Shown: positions 16,199 through 28,964 of the stretch, one piece after another
How positions within the stretch are numbered: position 1 is the stretch's first letter
Layout of the letters: each line of letters begins with the position of its first letter
Assembly: GCF_001697145.1 (NCBI RefSeq)
Contig: NZ_CP012719.1
Location: 1,522,501 to 1,586,500 of the forward strand
DNA length: 64,000 nt
Direction: 5' to 3'
From: Streptococcus anginosus
Lineage (GTDB): Bacteria > Bacillota > Bacilli > Lactobacillales > Streptococcaceae
The notes under the pieces: generated by a model
What the model was told of the DNA's origin: nothing
Seen by the model: the letters and a program-made list of their open reading frames with translations, nothing else
Databases searched by the model: none
Translations under genes and position numbers: made by a program

Positions 16199-17632
16199 TT
16201 ACAACTTTGCCAATTCTTCATTAAGAAGTTTTTGAGCTACTTGTGGATTGGCTTGACCTCTGGTAGCTTTCATGAGCTGACCGATCAGGGACTTGGCTGC
16301 ATTCTTGTTGCCACCCTTGTAGTCGTTGATTGCTTTTTCATTATCTGCAAAGACTTGCTGGATGATTGGCAGAAGTTGTGCTGGGTCAGAAATCTGCACT
16401 AAGCCAGCTTTTTCAACGTATTCCTTGGCTGAACCACCATTCTTCGCCAAATGAACAAAGACTTTTTTGGCAATTTTAGAGGAAATCGTACCGTCAGCCA
16501 CCAAACTCAACATTTCAGTCAAGTTGACTGGTGTCAAACCGATTTCTTCAATCGTTTTATCTTCAGCATTGAGGTATTGAGCAACCTCACCTTGGAGCCA
16601 GTTTGACACAGATTTTGCGTTTCCGCCCGCTGTCACTGCAGCTTCAAAGAAGTCAGAGATACTCTTCGTTGCTGTCAATTGCTTGACATCATAGTCTGAC
16701 AATCCAAAGTCTGCCTTGTACTTAGCCCGACGTTCTTTTGGAAAGGCTGGTAAATCTGAGCGCACTGACTCAATCCAACTATCATCAATCTCAAAGTTTG
16801 GTAGGTCAGGCTCTGGGAAGTAACGATAGTCAGCCGAGCCTTCCTTGACCCGCATAAGCAGGGTTTCACCCGTTACTTCGTCATACCGACGGGTTTCTTG
16901 ACGAATTTGACCACCGCTGCGCAAAATCTCAGCCTGACGTTTTTCCTCAAAAGCCAGACCTTTGCGAACAAAGTTGAAGGAATTAAGATTTTTTAGTTCT
17001 GTCTTGGTTCCAAATTCTTCTTGACCATAAGGACGGATAGAAATATTGGCATCCACGCGCATGGACCCTTCTTCCATTTTGACATCAGAAATGCCAGTAT
17101 ACTGGATGATTTCCTTGAGAGCTGTCAGATAAGCATAGGCTTCTTCTGGACTTCGCATATCCGCTTCTGAAACAATCTCAATCAGCGGCACGCCTTGGCG
17201 GTTAAGGTCAACATAAGAATAACCATCACTGCCGTGAGTGTTCTTTCCAGCGTCTTCTTCCAAATGAGCCCGCTCAATGCGAATTTTCTTAGTCGTACCG
17301 TCTTCTAATTCGATCTCAATCCAGCCATTGTAGCCAATTGGCTCGTCAAATTGAGAGATTTGGTAAGCTTTCGGATTATCTGGATAGAAATAATTCTTGC
17401 GGTCAAAGTGCATCTTTTGATGAATGTCCATATTGAGCGCCAGAGCAGCCTTAATACCGTAATCAATAACTCCCTTGTTCATCACCGGCAAGACACCTGG
17501 GAAAGACCAGTCAATGATATTGGTGTTGGTATTTGGATCTTCTCCGAAATGAGCCGGTGCTGGTGAGAAAATTTTTGAATTTGTTTTTAATTCAACGTGG
17601 ACTTCCAGTCCAATAATCGTTTCAAAGTTCAT
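16199..17632 (-). CDS. gatB: Asp/Glu-tRNA amidotransferase subunit B
   Basis: The 477-residue tRNA-binding and kinase subunit of GatCAB amidotransferase phosphorylates Glu or Asp on the mischarged tRNA before amidation. It has the family start [20 protein letters not shown], the blocks [14 protein letters not shown] and [19 protein letters not shown], and the acidic catalytic zone [10 protein letters not shown]. The C-terminal helical YqeY-like domain runs from about 330 to the end. It overlaps gatA by one base (TAATG), so the pair is translationally coupled. Confidence 0.96.
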
Positions 17633-19098
17633 TATTTTTCACCTCCAAAAATGACTGGTTTTTGCTTGTGGTAGTCTGTCGTTGCTTCAAAAGCAGCTGC
17701 CACTTGATAAATCGTTTCTTCATCAAAATGATTTCCAATCAATTGCAGACCAACCGGAAGTCCGTCCGCAAAGCCTGCTGGAATAGAAATACCAGGAAGC
17801 CCTGCCAAATTGACCGGAATTGTCAAAAGGTCAGCCAAATACATCGCTACTGGATCGTGACTTTGAGTTCCTAAGTCGTAAGCAACCGTTGGTGCAGTTG
17901 GTCCTAAAATCAAATCATACTTTTCAAATACCTTGGCAAAATCCTGCATAATGAGCGTCCGAACTTGACCTGCTTTCTTGAAATAAGCATCGTAATAACC
18001 AGAAGATAGACTAAATGTTCCCAACATAATCCGGCGCTTTACTTCCTCACCAAAACCTTGGCTACGAGACTTGACATAGACATCTTCTAAGTTCTCAATC
18101 TCATCTGCCCGATAGCCATAACGAATCCCATCGAAACGTTGCAAGTTAGAGCTGGCTTCAGAGGAAGCGATGATATAGTAAACCGCTACCCCATATTTGC
18201 TGTGCGGCAGGCTGACTTCTTCAACAATCGCTCCCAGACTTTCCAAATGTTTAGCAGCTGCCAAAATGCGTTCCTTGACTTTTTCATCAATCCCTTCACC
18301 CATATATTCTTTTGGAAGAGCAATTTTCAATCCTTTAATATCTTGACCAATCTTGCTAGTGAAATCAGGAACAGTTCGTTGAGAAGAGGTTGAGTCTTTT
18401 TTATCATTGCCTGCAATTACGCCCAAAAGCTGAGCATTTTCTTTGACCGTCTGAGCAAAAGGTCCGATTTGATCCAACGAGCTACCAAAAGCAATGAGCC
18501 CAAAGCGAGAAACTCGTCCATAAGTTGGCTTCAGTCCGACCACTCCGTTAAAGGAAGCTGGCTGACGGATCGAGCCACCGGTATCAGAACCTAGAGACAA
18601 GCGAACCTGACCAGAAGCAACTGCTGTCGCTGAACCACCAGATGAACCACCGGGAACTTTGGTAGTGTCCCAAGCATTTTTTGTAGTCTTAAAATAAGAA
18701 TTTTCACTGGAGCCACCCATGGCAAATTCGTCCATATTGGTCTTACCAATGACAATCATATCTTTCTCATGGAGTTTTTCGACACTGGTTGCATCAAAAA
18801 TTGGCTTATAATTGTAAAGAATTTTTGACGCAGCTGTCGTTAAAATCCCCTTAGTAGAAATATTGTCCTTAACAGCTAGTGGAATCCCGCTCATAAGATT
18901 ATCTGCATCAATTCCCTTCGTGTCTACTGCTGCTGCTTGCGCCAATGCTTCTTCTTCACTAATCGTAATAAAGCTATCAACTGCACTTTCTCGACTCTTA
19001 ATATCTTCCAGAGTAGCTTTCGTCAGCTCAACTGCGGAAAGTTCCTTTTTGACAAGGAGATCATGCAATTCTTCAATTGTTTTTTGATTCAAAGTCAT
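17632..19098 (-). CDS. gatA: Asp/Glu-tRNA amidotransferase subunit A
   Basis: The 488-residue amidase subunit generates ammonia from glutamine. The Ser-cisSer-Lys triad is visible: K77 in [12 protein letters not shown]152 in PGGSSGGSA and S176 in [12 protein letters not shown]. Together with GatB and GatC it converts Glu-tRNA-Gln to Gln-tRNA-Gln and, if Asp-tRNA-Asn is made, Asp-tRNA-Asn to Asn-tRNA-Asn. It overlaps both gatC and gatB by one base. Confidence 0.96.
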
Positions 19099-19400
19099 TA
19101 GGCGTCTCCTCCGTCATCTAGAATAGCAGGCACTTTGATATAGCCTCGCTCTTTTTCAGGCACATTTTGGAAAAGTTCTTCTCGATTCCAACCTGCAACT
19201 GCTACATCTTCACGCATATAGTTGACATTTTCTGCCACGTTTGATGTAAAAGGCACACCAGTTGTATCAACTTCGTTTAACAACTCCACCATGTCCACAA
19301 TTTTTGACAAAGTTGTCGCAAATTCTGCTGTTTCTTCAGGTGAAAAAGCGAGTTTTGACAGGTTGGCAACATGCGTTACTTCCTCTTGAGTAATTTTCAT
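19098..19400 (-). CDS. gatC: Asp/Glu-tRNA amidotransferase subunit C
   Basis: The 100-residue stabilising subunit wraps around GatA and GatB. The family pattern [18 protein letters not shown] and the C-terminal [13 protein letters not shown] are clear. It is the first gat gene after aspS, separated by 76 bases without a terminator. Confidence 0.95.
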
Positions 19401-19476
19401 CTCTGTTTCCTTTCTCTTCTTTTATTTTTCAGCATAACCGAAAAACAATCATCTTCTTATTTTATCACAAATAGGC

Positions 19477-21216
19477 TTAGTTCTTCAATTCCAAATGAAG
19501 TTCTTTCACTTGACTCGCATCTACTTGGCTGGGACTTTCTAGCATCGGATCAAAACCAGTTCCATTTTTAGGAAAGGCGATGACTTGGCGGATATTTTCT
19601 TCCCCAACCAAAATCATAACCAAGCGATCCAAGCCTAGAGCCAGGCCACCGTGTGGTGGGAAGCCGTACTCCAAGGCTTCTAGAAAGAAACCAAAGTCCC
19701 GCTCGTAATCTTCTTTTTCCATGCCCAAGAGTTCAAACATAGCTTCTTGACTCTTTCGATCATGAATCCGCAGGCTACCACCCCCAATTTCATAACCATT
19801 AAGGACAATATCATAGGCATGACTTTTGATTGAAGCTAAATCTTCTTTCTCATTTTCAAAAATTCCTTGGGTGAACGGGTGGTGCATAGCTTGATAGCGT
19901 CCCTGCTCCTCATTCCACTCTAGCAAAGGCCAATCTAATACCCAAAGGAAGTTCAGTTGACTCTGATCGATTAAATCTAATTGTTTGGCAATCTCCAATC
20001 GCAAGTGCCCCAAGGCTTCCTGAGCTTGTCTTTTCTTGGCAATGACCAGTAAAAGCAAATCACCGTCTTGCGCTTCCAATCGGTCTAGGAAGGCAGCTGC
20101 TTCTGCTTCAAAAGTCGAAGCCAAATCCCCTTGAAGTTCACCTGCTTCCACTTTAAGACTAGCAAACCTACTAGCTCCAAATTCTTTCATTTCTTGATAG
20201 AAATGACTGAGCTGCTTCTTCGTGAAAGAATCCGCAGCATCAGGAACACAGATACCCCATAATTCTTCGTGACGAGCAAAAGCCTGCTTCAGCAAAAGAG
20301 AGGAATTATCCTGACAGAGAGCGGTCAGATTTTTCAGTTCCAAACCAAAACGCGTATCCGGCTTATCCGTACCAAAGCGGTTCATGGCTTCTTCATAACT
20401 GATAGTCGGAAAAGCCTCTGTCAGTTCCAAACCATGAGTTTTCTTGACAACCGCTTTGAGCATCTCTTCTACAAGCATGCGAATGTCTTTTTCACTAGCA
20501 AAACTCATTTCCATATCGACCTGAGTAAATTCAGGCTGACGGTCTCCCCGTAAATCCTCATCTCGAAAGCAGCGAACAACTTGATAATAACGCTCCAGAC
20601 CAGCTCCCATTAGGAGTTGCTTCAGCATTTGCGGACTTTGAGGCAAGGCATAAAATTGATTTTTAAAAACTCGGCTAGGAACCAAAAAGTCTCTGGCTCC
20701 TTCTGGCGTGGACTTCGTCAAATAAGGCGTCTCTACTTCCAGAAAATCCTTACCGTTTAAGTAGTCACGAATTGTGCTGGTTACTTGATGACGAAGTTTG
20801 AGGTTCTCTGTCATCTTACTCCGACGCAAATCCAGATAGCGGTACTTCTGCCGCAACTCTTCTCCTGTATGGGCGTGCTGATCGAGTTCAAAAGGAAGAG
20901 GCTTACTACTTGCAAGGATTTGAATTGCCTCTGCTCGCAGCTCCACCTGTCCAGACTTGATAGCTTTGTTGACAAAGCGGGCTTCTCGCTCGACAACTTC
21001 TCCTGTAACAGCAATCACATCTTCTTTATGTAGATGTTCAATTTCAGTAAAAGCCGGACTATCACCTGCGACAAAAACTTGAAGCAGTCCTTCTCGGTCT
21101 CGTAGCTCTATAAAAGCCAATTTCCCATGATTTCGGATATTTGCAACCCACCCAGTCGCTATCATTTTCTGACCAACTTGTTCCAAACCGTAGTTTCCAA
21201 TAAAAACTTCTTTCAT
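19477..21216 (-). CDS. aspS: Aspartyl-tRNA synthetase, probably non-discriminating
   Basis: The 579-residue bacterial-type class II synthetase has an N-terminal OB anticodon-binding fold (WVANIRNHGKLAFIELRD), motif 2 FRDEDLRGDRQPEFTQVDME, a GAD insertion domain at about 290-410 and motif 3 GGLALGLDRLVMIL. Its place as first gene of a T-box-led operon with gatCAB suggests that it charges both tRNA-Asp and tRNA-Asn, leaving GatCAB to amidate the latter. Histidine 30 in RNHG sits where non-discriminating bacterial enzymes have His and discriminating ones usually have Leu, which fits this view but is not proof. Many streptococci have another aspS elsewhere; that cannot be seen here. Confidence 0.9.
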   Translation of the reverse strand: MKEVFIGNYGLEQVGQKMIATGWVANIRNHGKLAFIELRDREGLLQVFVAGDSPAFTEIEHLHKEDVIAVTGEVVEREARFVNKAIKSGQVELRAEAIQILASSKPLPFELDQHAHTGEELRQKYRYLDLRRSKMTENLKLRHQVTSTIRDYLNGKDFLEVETPYLTKSTPEGARDFLVPSRVFKNQFYALPQSPQMLKQLLMGAGLERYYQVVRCFRDEDLRGDRQPEFTQVDMEMSFASEKDIRMLVEEMLKAVVKKTHGLELTEAFPTISYEEAMNRFGTDKPDTRFGLELKNLTALCQDNSSLLLKQAFARHEELWGICVPDAADSFTKKQLSHFYQEMKEFGASRFASLKVEAGELQGDLASTFEAEAAAFLDRLEAQDGDLLLLVIAKKRQAQEALGHLRLEIAKQLDLIDQSQLNFLWVLDWPLLEWNEEQGRYQAMHHPFTQGIFENEKEDLASIKSHAYDIVLNGYEIGGGSLRIHDRKSQEAMFELLGMEKEDYERDFGFFLEALEYGFPPHGGLALGLDRLVMILVGEENIRQVIAFPKNGTGFDPMLESPSQVDASQVKELHLELKN

Positions 21217-21269: not shown

Positions 21270-21440
21270 TTACTTATAGAAATCTACGCCCGTAGCTCTA
21301 GATACTAAAAGTAGGAAGCATTTTTTGTTTACGGCTTTTGTCCAACTGACAAAATTACCACCGCTCCTCTAAGTACTAAGAATTATAAGGAACATTGACT
21401 TTACTACGTGAATCTATGACCATAGCTCTAAACGCTAAAA
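21270..21440. repeat. Imperfect direct repeats in the aspS leader
   Basis: Two copies of a roughly 40-base unit, at 21270-21310 and 21401-21440, match at about 30 of 41 positions and share AATCTA, TAGCTCTA and CTAAAA blocks. A weaker third copy lies at 21351-21381. They stand between the T-box terminator and the aspS start. The unit at 21401 can also pair with sequence at 21444-21455 through AGAGCTAT. Confidence 0.5.
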
Positions 21441-21455
21441 CATTCAGAGCTATAG

Positions 21456-21750
21456 AAAAACGGCTTCCGCCTGTAAAACAGACGAAAGCCGTGGTACCAC
21501 TGTTATTCGTTGCATTGCAACCTCTAGCTCGTAACGTGAGCAGACGTTTGCGCTTTGATTCACACAAATTTCTTGCAATGATATAATAGTTTTAGACAAT
21601 ATCATCCTTTACCATAAATAGCATAGAAAAAACCATTATATCATTGACAGTATGTTCTTCGGATTTTGCTTCCTTGGTGCTGCTCTCAGCTTTCAGCACT
21701 CTCTGTTCAAGTCAACAAGCCTACTCTACTGCTTTTTTACTTTTAAATTG
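21456..21750 (-). promoter_or_regulatory. T-box riboswitch leader of aspS-gatCAB
   Basis: On the minus strand the leader has a stem I region with AGTA, an AGAGAG bulge and a GTGCTG...CAGCAC distal stem. The specifier area is CCGAAGAACATACTG. The T-box core GTGGTACCACG stands at about 21503-21490, and a terminator ACGGCTTTCGTC/GGCGGAAGCCGT with TTTTT lies at 21492-21456. The 5' base of stem I (CAGTA) overlaps the pncA stop codon and pairs with TACTG after the specifier. Uncharged tRNA should stabilise the antiterminator and let transcription reach aspS. The codon read is either GAA (Glu) or AAC (Asn), which overlap. Confidence 0.87.
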
Positions 21751-22301
21751 TTATCTATTATAGTCGAACCTAAAACATTTTGCAAGTGGTTTAGTGCAAA
21801 TTTATGATTTTCCTCCGAAAGAGAAGCTACAGCAGACTCTACCACCTCAATTTGATACCCTAAATTATAGGCATCAATAGCTGTGTGGAGAACGCAAATA
21901 TCCGTCAGAACACCTGTCAGAATTACCGTATCTACTTTTCTTTCTCGCAAGCGAATATCCAAATCTGTCCCCGAAAAAGCAGAATAATGTCGTTTATCCA
22001 TCCAAAAGACGCGAGAATCTGCTTTATGCTCCTGATAGAAATCAGCCAATGATCCATAAAGGTTACGTCCACTAGTCCCCTTGATGTTGTGTGGCGGAAA
22101 GAGTTTACTCTCTGGGTGAAAACTATCCCCCTCATCATGGGCATCAATTGCAAAAAAGATATAATCTCCTCGATCAAAAGCAGCCTTTGTTACCTGTGCA
22201 ATGGTTTCAGAAATTGACTGAGCTGGCACACCTGCTGTTAATTTCCCATCATCCGCTACAAAATCCACCGTATAATCAATCGAAATCAATGCTTTTGTCA
22301 T
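21726..22301 (-). CDS. pncA: Nicotinamidase-like isochorismatase-family hydrolase
   Basis: The 191-residue protein fits nicotinamidase (nicotinamide to nicotinate, NAD salvage). It has the nucleophile-activating Asp in LISIDYTVDF, the metal-site pattern FAIDAHDEGD, the catalytic lysine in DKRHYSAFSG and the cysteine in TGVLTDICVLHTAIDA. It starts on the last base of the codY stop (TGATG), so it is coupled to codY, as in other streptococci. Its 3' end carries the promoter of the next operon. Confidence 0.87.
   Translation of the reverse strand: MTKALISIDYTVDFVADDGKLTAGVPAQSISETIAQVTKAAFDRGDYIFFAIDAHDEGDSFHPESKLFPPHNIKGTSGRNLYGSLADFYQEHKADSRVFWMDKRHYSAFSGTDLDIRLRERKVDTVILTGVLTDICVLHTAIDAYNLGYQIEVVESAVASLSEENHKFALNHLQNVLGSTIIDNNLKVKKQ
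21757..21785 (-). promoter_or_regulatory. Promoter of the T-box operon inside the pncA 3' end
   Basis: On the minus strand TTGCAA (21785-21780) and a perfect TATAAT (21762-21757) are separated by 17 bases. Both lie within the last codons of pncA, and transcription would begin near 21750, just before stem I of the T-box. Confidence 0.65.
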
Positions 22302-25158: not shown

Positions 25159-25674
25159 ATGAAATTAACTTATAAAGATAAAGTTCAGATCTATGAACTT
25201 AGAAAACAAGGGCGCAGCTTCAAAGAGCTTTCAAATATATTTGGGATAAAAATTACCAATCTTCAGTACATGATTAAATTGATTGATCGTTATGGAATGG
25301 AAATCGTCAAAAAAGGAAAGAATTGTTACTATTCACCTGAACTAAAACAAGAGATCATTGATGAAGTTCTACTTGAAGGTCGTTCACAAATAAGGGTCTC
25401 TCTAGATTATGCTCTTCCAAGTGTTGGAATGTTGCCTAATTGGATAGCACAATATAAGAAAAACGGGTATACTATTGTTGAGAAAACAAGAGGGAGACCG
25501 CCTAAAATGGGACGTAAACCAAAGAAGAAACCCGAAGAGATGACAGAGCTAGAGCGACTTCAGGAAGAATTAGACTATTTAAGAGCGGAGAATGCCATTC
25601 TAAAAAAGTTGAGAGAACTCCGATTGAGGGACGAAAAGGATCAAGAAGAAAAGCAGAAATTGTTCAAGGATTAG
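25159..25674 (+). CDS. IS3-family transposase OrfA
   Basis: The 171-residue DNA-binding protein of the element has two helix-turn-helix units (residues about 5-50 and 60-110) and a C-terminal leucine-zipper-like coiled coil ([21 protein letters not shown]). The slippery heptamer AAAAAAG in codon phase A-AAA-AAG lies at 25602-25608 inside the coiled coil. A -1 shift there enters the orfB frame directly, giving an OrfAB transposase fusion. Confidence 0.92.
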
Positions 25675-26498
25675 TGACAGAGTTTGCCTTAGAGATTCTT
25701 CTAAAGATTATTAAGCTAGCTCGTTCAACCTATTATTACCAGCTAAAGCAACTAGATAAAAGCGATAAAAATCATGATATTAAAGCTGAAATTCAAGCTA
25801 TTTTTACTGAGCATAAAGGAAATTATGGTTATCGCCGAATAACACTCGAATTAAGGAATCGTGGTTTTGTAGTGAACCATAAAAAGGTCCAACGTCTGAT
25901 GAAGGCTCTTGGTTTAAGTGCTCGAATTCGTCGTAAACGTAAGTATTCTTCCTATCAAGGAGAAGTTGGCAAGAAAGCAGATAACCTTATTCAACGCCAG
26001 TTTGAAGCATCCAAACCAATGAAAAAGTGCTACACAGATGTGACAGAGTTTGCCATTCCAGCAAGCAGTCAAAAGCTCTACTTATCGCCAATCTTAGATG
26101 GCTTTAATATCGCCTATAATCTTTCTACGTCACCGAATTTGATACAAGTGAAAGATATGCTAGAACAAGCCTTCACAGAGGAACATTACGAGAATACCAT
26201 TCTTCATAGTGATCAAGGATGGCAGTATCAACATCAGTATTATCATCGTTTTTTAGAGGATAAAGGAATCCAACCGTCCATGTCACGTAAAGGAAACAGT
26301 CCAGATAACGGTATGATGGAGTCCTTCTTTGGTATTCTTAAGTCTGAGATGTTTTATGGTTATGAGAAGACGTTTCACTCACTTGAGCAATTGGAACAAG
26401 CTATTGTAGACTATATTGATTATTACAACAACAAACGGATTAAGGTAAAACTAAAAGGACTTAGCCCTGTGCAATACAGAACTAAATCCTTTGGATAA
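25674..26498 (+). CDS. IS3-family transposase OrfB (catalytic part)
   Basis: The DDE integrase-type catalytic domain is reached by -1 frameshifting from orfA at 25608; the GTG at 25674 is only a nominal start. An HTH_21 segment with HKGNYGYRRITLELRNRG lies near residues 45-65. The catalytic residues stand in CYTDVTEF (D), LHSDQGWQYQ (D) and MMESFFGILKSEMF (E). The length is normal, with no internal stop. Confidence 0.93.
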   Translation: MTEFALEILLKIIKLARSTYYYQLKQLDKSDKNHDIKAEIQAIFTEHKGNYGYRRITLELRNRGFVVNHKKVQRLMKALGLSARIRRKRKYSSYQGEVGKKADNLIQRQFEASKPMKKCYTDVTEFAIPASSQKLYLSPILDGFNIAYNLSTSPNLIQVKDMLEQAFTEEHYENTILHSDQGWQYQHQYYHRFLEDKGIQPSMSRKGNSPDNGMMESFFGILKSEMFYGYEKTFHSLEQLEQAIVDYIDYYNNKRIKVKLKGLSPVQYRTKSFG

Positions 26499-28001: not shown

Positions 28002-28964
28002 ATGACCAAAAAAATTTTAGTTTTACATACTGGCGGTACTATTTCCATGCAGGCGGACATTACTGGAAAAGTCGTCACAACTGAACACAATCCCATGAAC
28101 CATGTCACAGTTCCTCTAGAAGGTATTCAAGTGACAGTTCTTGATGTTTTCAATATTCCTAGCCCTCACATAACACCACAGCACATGCTGCAATTGTATC
28201 AAAAAATCAAGACAGACGGGAAGCATTTTGACGGGGTTGTCATTACTCATGGAACGGACACTCTGGAAGAAACAGCTTATTTTTTGGATACCATGGAACT
28301 TCCAGATATTCCTGTCGTCTTGACCGGTGCCATGCGAAGCTCCAATGAACTAGGAAGTGACGGAGTTTACAATTACTTATCTGCACTTCGTGTAGCAAGT
28401 GATGACAAAGCACGCGGAAAAGGCGTTCTAGTGGTTATGAATGATGAAGTCCATGCTGCCAAATACGTGACAAAAACGCATACGACCAATGTCAGCACTT
28501 TTCAAACGCCAACTCATGGACCACTCGGACTGATTATGAAGCAAGAAATCCTCTATTTCAAAACAGCTGAACCACGCGTTCGTTTTCATTTAGATAAAAT
28601 TTCTGGGTTAGTACCGATTATCCCAGCCTATGCTGGAATGAAAACTGAACTGCTTGATATGCTAGACTTGGAAAAGATAGACGGTCTCATCATTGAAGGC
28701 TTTGGCGCTGGAAATCTACCACAAGAAGTTGCCCAAAAGCTCAGAAAACTTGCGAATTCTGGATTGCCAATTGCACTTGTATCACGTTGCTTTAACGGGA
28801 TTGCAGAGCCAGTTTACGCTTATGAAGGAGGCGGTGTAAAGTTACACGAATCAGGAATCATGTTTGTCAAAGAGCTGAATGCTCCTAAAGCTCGTATCAA
28901 GCTGCTAATCGCCCTGAATGCTAGACTTCAAGGGCAAGAATTAAAAGACTACATGGAAGGCTAG
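28002..28964 (+). CDS. ansA: Type I L-asparaginase
   Basis: The 320-residue amidohydrolase converts asparagine to aspartate and ammonia. The catalytic threonines are visible in LHTGGTISM (T10-T13) and THGTDTLEETAYFLD. The lack of a signal peptide and the length place it with cytosolic type I enzymes. It has its own promoter region shared with the divergent HAD gene and a ribosome site AGGAGAAG. Confidence 0.92.
   Translation: MTKKILVLHTGGTISMQADITGKVVTTEHNPMNHVTVPLEGIQVTVLDVFNIPSPHITPQHMLQLYQKIKTDGKHFDGVVITHGTDTLEETAYFLDTMELPDIPVVLTGAMRSSNELGSDGVYNYLSALRVASDDKARGKGVLVVMNDEVHAAKYVTKTHTTNVSTFQTPTHGPLGLIMKQEILYFKTAEPRVRFHLDKISGLVPIIPAYAGMKTELLDMLDLEKIDGLIIEGFGAGNLPQEVAQKLRKLANSGLPIALVSRCFNGIAEPVYAYEGGGVKLHESGIMFVKELNAPKARIKLLIALNARLQGQELKDYMEG

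Follow-up and report, generated by a model that had tools for sequence, protein, structure and literature searches.

A T-box leader with an asparagine specifier before a second aspartyl-tRNA synthetase gene and gatCAB in Streptococcus: a probable stand-in for AsnA

The closest described counterpart of the leader considered here belongs to a transamidation operon of Clostridium acetobutylicum, whose T-box has overlapping GAA and AAC codons (Saad 2012, 2013, as summarised in PMC4052509 and PMC4206432). There, as in the streptococci discussed below, the T-box stands before genes for tRNA-dependent asparagine synthesis, GAA and AAC overlap, the organism has more than one aspartyl-tRNA synthetase (AspRS) and the regulatory logic, so far as those summaries convey it, is similar. 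Unlike it, the streptococcal operon is aspS2-gatCAB and occurs where asnA is missing, its GAA half lacks conservation, a -10 element of its own precedes gatC and the binding of two tRNAs is only hypothesised. Deinococcus and Thermus, by the summary in one of those papers (PMC4206432), also have, in addition to AsnRS and GatCAB, a second and non-discriminating AspRS for tRNA-dependent asparagine synthesis, but theirs is of archaeal type whereas the streptococcal paralogue is of bacterial type and groups, on a long branch, with Enterococcus AspRS and the products of Streptococcus aspS1. Extra AspRSs occur in 15 genera outside Deinococcus-Thermus, and the section that deals with them names Clostridiaceae, Actinomycetales and Amycolatopsis, not Streptococcus (PMC4206432). 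A 2008 T-box survey, in the part that bears on this, says that it found amidotransferase genes to have no T-box ahead of them (PMC2494555).

How does the Streptococcus anginosus locus compare? The window, i.e., the whole stretch of 64,000 nucleotides that was analysed, contains:

21757..21785, minus strand: candidate leader promoter (TTGCAA, 17 nt, TATAAT; consensus scan, 10/12)
21475..21738, minus strand: T-box leader (Rfam RF00230, 54.7 bits, E 4.5e-11, whole model covered)
21648..21731, minus strand: Stem I, from its basal helix CAGTA/TACTG up to the AG-bulge helix (RNAalifold, 34 distinct sequences)
21479..21507, minus strand: antiterminator with T-box bulge TGGT at 21499..21496 (AACAGTGGTACCACGG located; Rfam alignment)
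21455..21492, minus strand: intrinsic terminator, 15-pair stem and T tail
19477..21216, minus strand: aspS2, second aspartyl-tRNA synthetase gene, with His30 (NCBIfam TIGR00459, 693.6 bits)
19098..19400, minus strand: gatC (TIGR00135)
17632..19098, minus strand: gatA (TIGR00132)
16199..17632, minus strand: gatB (NF004011)

A sequence-only reading of the window had proposed a T-box ahead of aspS-gatCAB, and this is borne out by the RF00230 match, the terminator and the four genes, all of which exceed their NCBIfam cut-offs. What it could not show from the window alone is that the genome has another aspS besides this one, and AsnRS as well, but no asnA. We consider it quite probable that the leader is a transcriptional T-box riboswitch which senses tRNA-Asn and turns on AspRS2, the enzyme that with GatCAB would make asparagine on tRNA-Asn in place of AsnA.

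The leader scores below the RF00230 gathering score of 93 and is thus absent from a default scan, but a low score is usual in this genome since eight of its nine RF00230 matches are below 93 and one is above. Its first 13 nt run into the end of the upstream ORF, and the promoter-like site lies within the 3′ end of that hydrolase gene (21726..22301). The stretch with this site recurs in the leaders of relatives, and we infer that it may serve as promoter. The T-box hallmarks are present: a Stem I that carries a specifier loop and an AG bulge, a TGGN bulge, an antiterminator (its pairing with CTGTT read by eye) and a competing terminator. Among the 34 distinct sequences, which are from related genomes, the Stem I helices flank the specifier loop on both sides and have compensatory pairs, one basal pair being U-A, C-G or U-G and the pair that ends the top helix U-A or C-G. 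The GA motif that the Rfam consensus has at the base of Stem I is missing from this leader in the Rfam alignment. The fold of a 301-nt leader is -87.2 kcal/mol, 4.15 SD below dinucleotide shuffles, none of 100 of which was as good. A plasmid search with the leader gave zero matches.

Which codon does the loop display? In the usual T-box register a single base separates a conserved GAA from the codon, and a purine comes next. The window loop is GAA G AAC A, which in that register has an asparagine codon, and its parts are:

21658..21660, minus strand: conserved loop triplet GAA before the specifier (0 changes on a 35-leader tree)
21657, minus strand: variable base before the specifier, G in the window (G 35, A 2, C 1 of 38)
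21654..21656, minus strand: specifier AAC (Rfam alignment register; AAC in 38 of 38 leaders)

The specifier region had earlier been read as CCGAAGAACATACTG; that was right, and it sits at 21662..21648 on the minus strand. Covariance model alignment with Rfam places the specifier on AAC. Of the overlapping GAA and AAC pointed out in CCGAAGAAC, only the second GAA overlaps AAC, as G at 21657 makes a GAA (21657..21655) one base upstream of the AAC frame; the first is the loop triplet conserved ahead of the specifier. An aspartate (GAC) specifier was considered and discarded: GAAGAACA lacks that triplet, and the codon in the Rfam register is AAC. The specifier fits the host tRNA-Asn(GUU). With AAC in register and aspS-gatCAB downstream, the proposal of an asparagine-specifier T-box tied to transamidation, like that reported from C. 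acetobutylicum, holds.

Does the leader sense one tRNA or two? According to a passage in the TBDB paper one frame is preferred and neighbouring frames are allowed (PMC7778990). It has been proposed that a one-base shift lets the loop also read tRNA-Glu by GAA, the operon then answering both tRNAs and balancing two amino acids. The window does have GAAC, there is the C. acetobutylicum precedent, as far as summarised (PMC4052509), and the base before AAC is G in 35 of 38 aspS2 leaders against one of 18 in the asparagine T-boxes that a search ahead of 40 asnA genes from other Lactobacillales yielded, where it is T in nine and A in eight (16 read by script and two by eye; Fisher p 2e-10, kinship ignored). 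Those asnA-linked leaders are otherwise alike in register, GAA-N-AAC, and in bulge, and precede different genes. One ancestral G, or weak selection, would explain the enrichment. The acceptor ends are also relevant: the tRNA-Asn of the window's genome has U1-A72 and G73 and its tRNA-Glu has A73 (ARAGORN, the tRNA-Glu ends trimmed by eye), likewise in ten other aspS2 genomes, and so the TGGT bulge of the window forms a G-U wobble with tRNA-Asn and a Watson-Crick pair with tRNA-Glu. However, TGGT as evidence for tRNA-Glu was ruled out, and is uninformative on this point, because all 18 asnA-linked asparagine T-boxes have it. In the mutans group seven leaders combine GAAC with a TGGC bulge (a combination that S. 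ratti has), which fits G73 of tRNA-Asn and mismatches A73 of tRNA-Glu (tRNA-Glu read in four of the seven genomes). On the aspS2 tree of 35 leaders, eight positions of GAA-N-AACAT have no changes and N, the base that makes the GAA, has three; over 238 leader columns the mean is 2.16 changes and the median 2. Nature has even provided the variants: AAAC in S. sanguinis ATCC 10556 and S. massiliensis, and CAAC in S. ferus, all before intact aspS2 genes. The survey of streptococcal aspS-gatCAB leaders thus finds GAAC common (35 of 38) with AAC invariant, while the base on which the GAA depends varies. By the definition of a two-codon T-box adopted here, both codons being kept by selection, this loop falls short. 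The Asn half of the sequence-only reading is well supported; its Glu half, as a conserved function, is not supported, and we think a leader evolved to answer both tRNAs unlikely, though it is possible that the window leader also binds tRNA-Glu in this species without evolution having kept it.

A variation on this is that the second codon drifts, the base before AAC setting which second tRNA the leader samples. It would be Glu in most species, Gln via CAAC in S. ferus and none of use in the AAAC species, and if so, with the T or C of the bulge, close streptococci would differ in sensing Asn only or the Glu/Gln branch of that amidotransferase as well. We regard this as a long shot.

A further consideration is the glutamine side. 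Between aspS2 and gatC is a promoter-like element:

19459..19467, minus strand: extended -10 element TGATAAAAT before gatC (conserved in 34 of 35 aspS2 loci)

Of the 35 loci, 34 have this extended -10, TGnTA[AT]AAT, after the stop codon of aspS2. The sole exception is G112, where the aspS2-gatC link has been lost and gatC still has the element. It also precedes gatC, with no T-box core, at all 13 loci with a located start in 12 genomes without aspS2 (16 loci were surveyed, one of them G112 and two lacking a located start). Matches in shuffled sequences are 3.5% before gatC and 1.5% after aspS2; in this recheck 12 of the 13 gatC starts could be located, each with the element. It seems, from this distribution, that a T-box-aspS2 unit was placed in front of an older gatC promoter. 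With its own -10 element gatC would not make glutamine supply depend on the switch, which weakens the earlier suggestion of balancing Asn and Gln supply and leaves the Gln branch without need of a second sensor. The idea that Gln-tRNA supply has to be safeguarded by a Glu or Gln sensor in the operon was likewise rejected as unnecessary. In G112 (L008, L285) aspS2 and gatC are about 32 kb apart if the contig is circular, and a remnant resembling the last part of aspS2 is retained on the gatC side, which looks like the trace of an element's insertion there.

What of asparagine itself? The window's genome has a further AspRS gene (C1:1927468-1929192), 51% identical to the AspRS of the window, and because of it the latter is a second AspRS gene, here named aspS2. 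A true AsnRS is present (467.9 bits, over cut-off), and neither asnA nor asnB was found in that genome. At a threshold of E 1e-200 or better, aspS2 is in 38 of 284 Streptococcus genomes; two of the copies are damaged, that of G415 by truncation and that of G494 by stop codons, and the other 36 are free of stops. This T-box leader stands before all 38. Of the same 284 genomes 240 have asnA: none of the 38 with aspS2 and 240 of the 246 without it, the 44 genomes lacking asnA hence including all 38 with aspS2 (Fisher p 3e-41, kinship ignored). The pattern is unchanged in a 147-genome sample of the 284, two of which have asnB. Mapped on a tree built from the other AspRS gene of 63 genomes, aspS2 has three changes and asnA has five; three independent aspS2/asnA pairs are opposite in nearly all pairings (p 0.25), and three pairs put significance out of reach. 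One genome, G055, sits amid asnA-bearing genomes and has aspS2 and no asnA, while its aspS2 nests inside the S. sanguinis/cristatus clade, as if aspS2 had been transferred in and asnA lost; the asnA loss is less sure because the genome is 90% complete. In the aspS1 tree the window's genome clusters with G494, G112, G384 and G415. Broken copies of aspS2, with a frameshift or stops, are seen in L060/L197/G415 (S. intermedius SK54) and L199/G494, where asnA is also absent. The G415 and G494 leaders are still recognisable, and these cases look like natural losses of the pathway. Six Streptococcus genomes have neither asnA nor aspS2 (G004, G141, G260, G353, G401 and G480), four of them forming one clade near the mutans group; they are predicted to be asparagine auxotrophs. 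That they rely on a lone His-type non-discriminating AspRS was ruled out, as their AspRS has Leu. Within the window itself, in a genome without asnA, an asparaginase-like gene is at 28002-28964 on the plus strand, below NCBIfam cut-offs.

All this points to a swap of asparagine pathway within one genus, with a T-box-controlled second AspRS and GatCAB in 38 of the 44 asnA-less genomes, and predicts a tRNA-dependent asparagine pathway for S. sanguinis, for mutans-group species and probably for those of the anginosus group. Saad's 2013 work reportedly includes genomic comparisons, which could already list streptococci. Among the matches listed from the openly licensed PMC literature, with passages of PMC9437257, PMC9026213, PMC3412718 and PMC4919913 also consulted, no title or abstract reports the streptococcal leader or the aspS2/asnA exclusion.

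For such a pathway AspRS2 would have to accept tRNA-Asn. Is there any sign of it? In 2006 Bernard is said to have found His in non-discriminating bacterial AspRSs where discriminating ones have Leu, at an anticodon-domain position that we take to be H31 of P. aeruginosa. His is at this position in all 54 aspS2 products matched (55 loci were given, some genomes being in two collections) and Leu in all 63 of aspS1. In structure alignments His is found in 4wj3, whose chain is named Asp/Asn ligase and which we take to be the Pseudomonas enzyme, and Leu in 1eqr and 1efw, presumably E. coli AspRS and Thermus AspRS1 respectively. At 57 AspRS loci outside the aspS2 set, Nitrospirota and Elusimicrobiota have His and Bacillota have Leu (for six of them the script printed the next residue, the motif itself being NLG). 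T-box cores are upstream at four of these 57 loci, and no gatC was seen beside any by a weak motif, a similar version of which missed gatC in four of 11 loci. A second marker of non-discriminating AspRSs, usual though not universal, is a Gly about 50 residues further on; the window AspRS2 has Arg there (alignment read by eye). A protein tree, quickly made, puts aspS2 on a long branch and groups it with Streptococcus aspS1 and Enterococcus AspRS (SH-aLRT 98), which suggests an old Lactobacillales duplicate with changed function, though a long branch can mislead. On the tRNA side, bacterial GatCAB is described as needing U1-A72 in tRNA-Asn (PMC4206432, in the passage concerned), the pair that the tRNA-Asn of these genomes has. 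The tRNA-Glu and tRNA-Asn genes adjoin at L140 (G000:C1:1995800-1996100), and do so in ten other aspS2 genomes.

Put together, the switch would work as follows. Uncharged tRNA-Asn would make two contacts, its anticodon GUU with the AAC of Stem I and its free 3′ end with TGGT in the bulge; the antiterminator would form, and aspS2 would be transcribed with read-through into gatCAB. AspRS2, accepting tRNA-Asn besides tRNA-Asp, would then make Asp-tRNA-Asn, and GatCAB would amidate this to Asn-tRNA-Asn. Since neither AsnA nor AsnB was found, AspRS2-GatCAB would be the cell's route to asparagine. Given external asparagine, AsnRS would charge tRNA-Asn, the terminator would form and the mis-acylating enzyme would be off, while GatCAB, presumably needed constantly for Gln-tRNA-Gln, would stay on from its own promoter. 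Counting against this tRNA-Asn reading are the G enrichment before AAC, the contact of TGGT with G73 being a wobble only, the Arg at the second marker, the dependence of the exclusion on about three independent events, and also G112, in which aspS2 is no longer beside gatC.

Some of these points would be accommodated if the T-box answers tRNA-Asn and AspRS2 is simply an ordinary aspartate enzyme, the operon only raising the supply of Asp- and Gln-tRNA and asnA having been lost by a coincidence of descent. In its favour, besides the few independent events and the Arg at the second marker, aspS2 stands with gatCAB, whose ordinary Gln-tRNA task would need no second AspRS, and the six genomes with neither asnA nor aspS2 imply that streptococci can live without either. 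However, an asparagine specifier makes little sense for an aspartate enzyme, the His/Leu difference separates aspS2 from aspS1 with no exceptions in the sequences read, none of the 38 aspS2 genomes has kept asnA, and G055, within an asnA-bearing clade, has the one and not the other. We judge this quite improbable. That the leader is a decayed, non-functional relic is scarcely credible, for despite its low Rfam score, its additional hairpin and the recognisable leaders before broken aspS2 in G415 and G494, the Stem I pairs are maintained with compensatory changes, the bases of loop, specifier and bulge hardly change and the window aspS2 is an intact ORF.

The leader and its surroundings have some other features. 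An 18-nt inverted repeat (21576-21593 and 21629-21646, 35 nt spacing) would form a long additional hairpin in the part of the leader that separates Stem I from the antiterminator. Leaders like that of the window share it (L007, L008 and L199, and in altered form L197), and S. sanguinis-type leaders do not. On the plus strand a promoter-like site at 21559-21587 (11/12, with TG before the -10) is directed out of the leader and an antisense transcript from it is possible; promoter-like sites in the region number eight against 4.9 in shuffles. Between terminator and aspS a 20-nt motif is present in two copies, 21281-21300 and 21411-21430 (chance expectation 0.03), and a similar one is 3′ of aspS2 in G112 (L008), so that it is possibly a short repeat element. 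Further off, at 25159-26498 on the plus strand, two adjoining ORFs resemble, from their translations, an IS3-type transposase pair.
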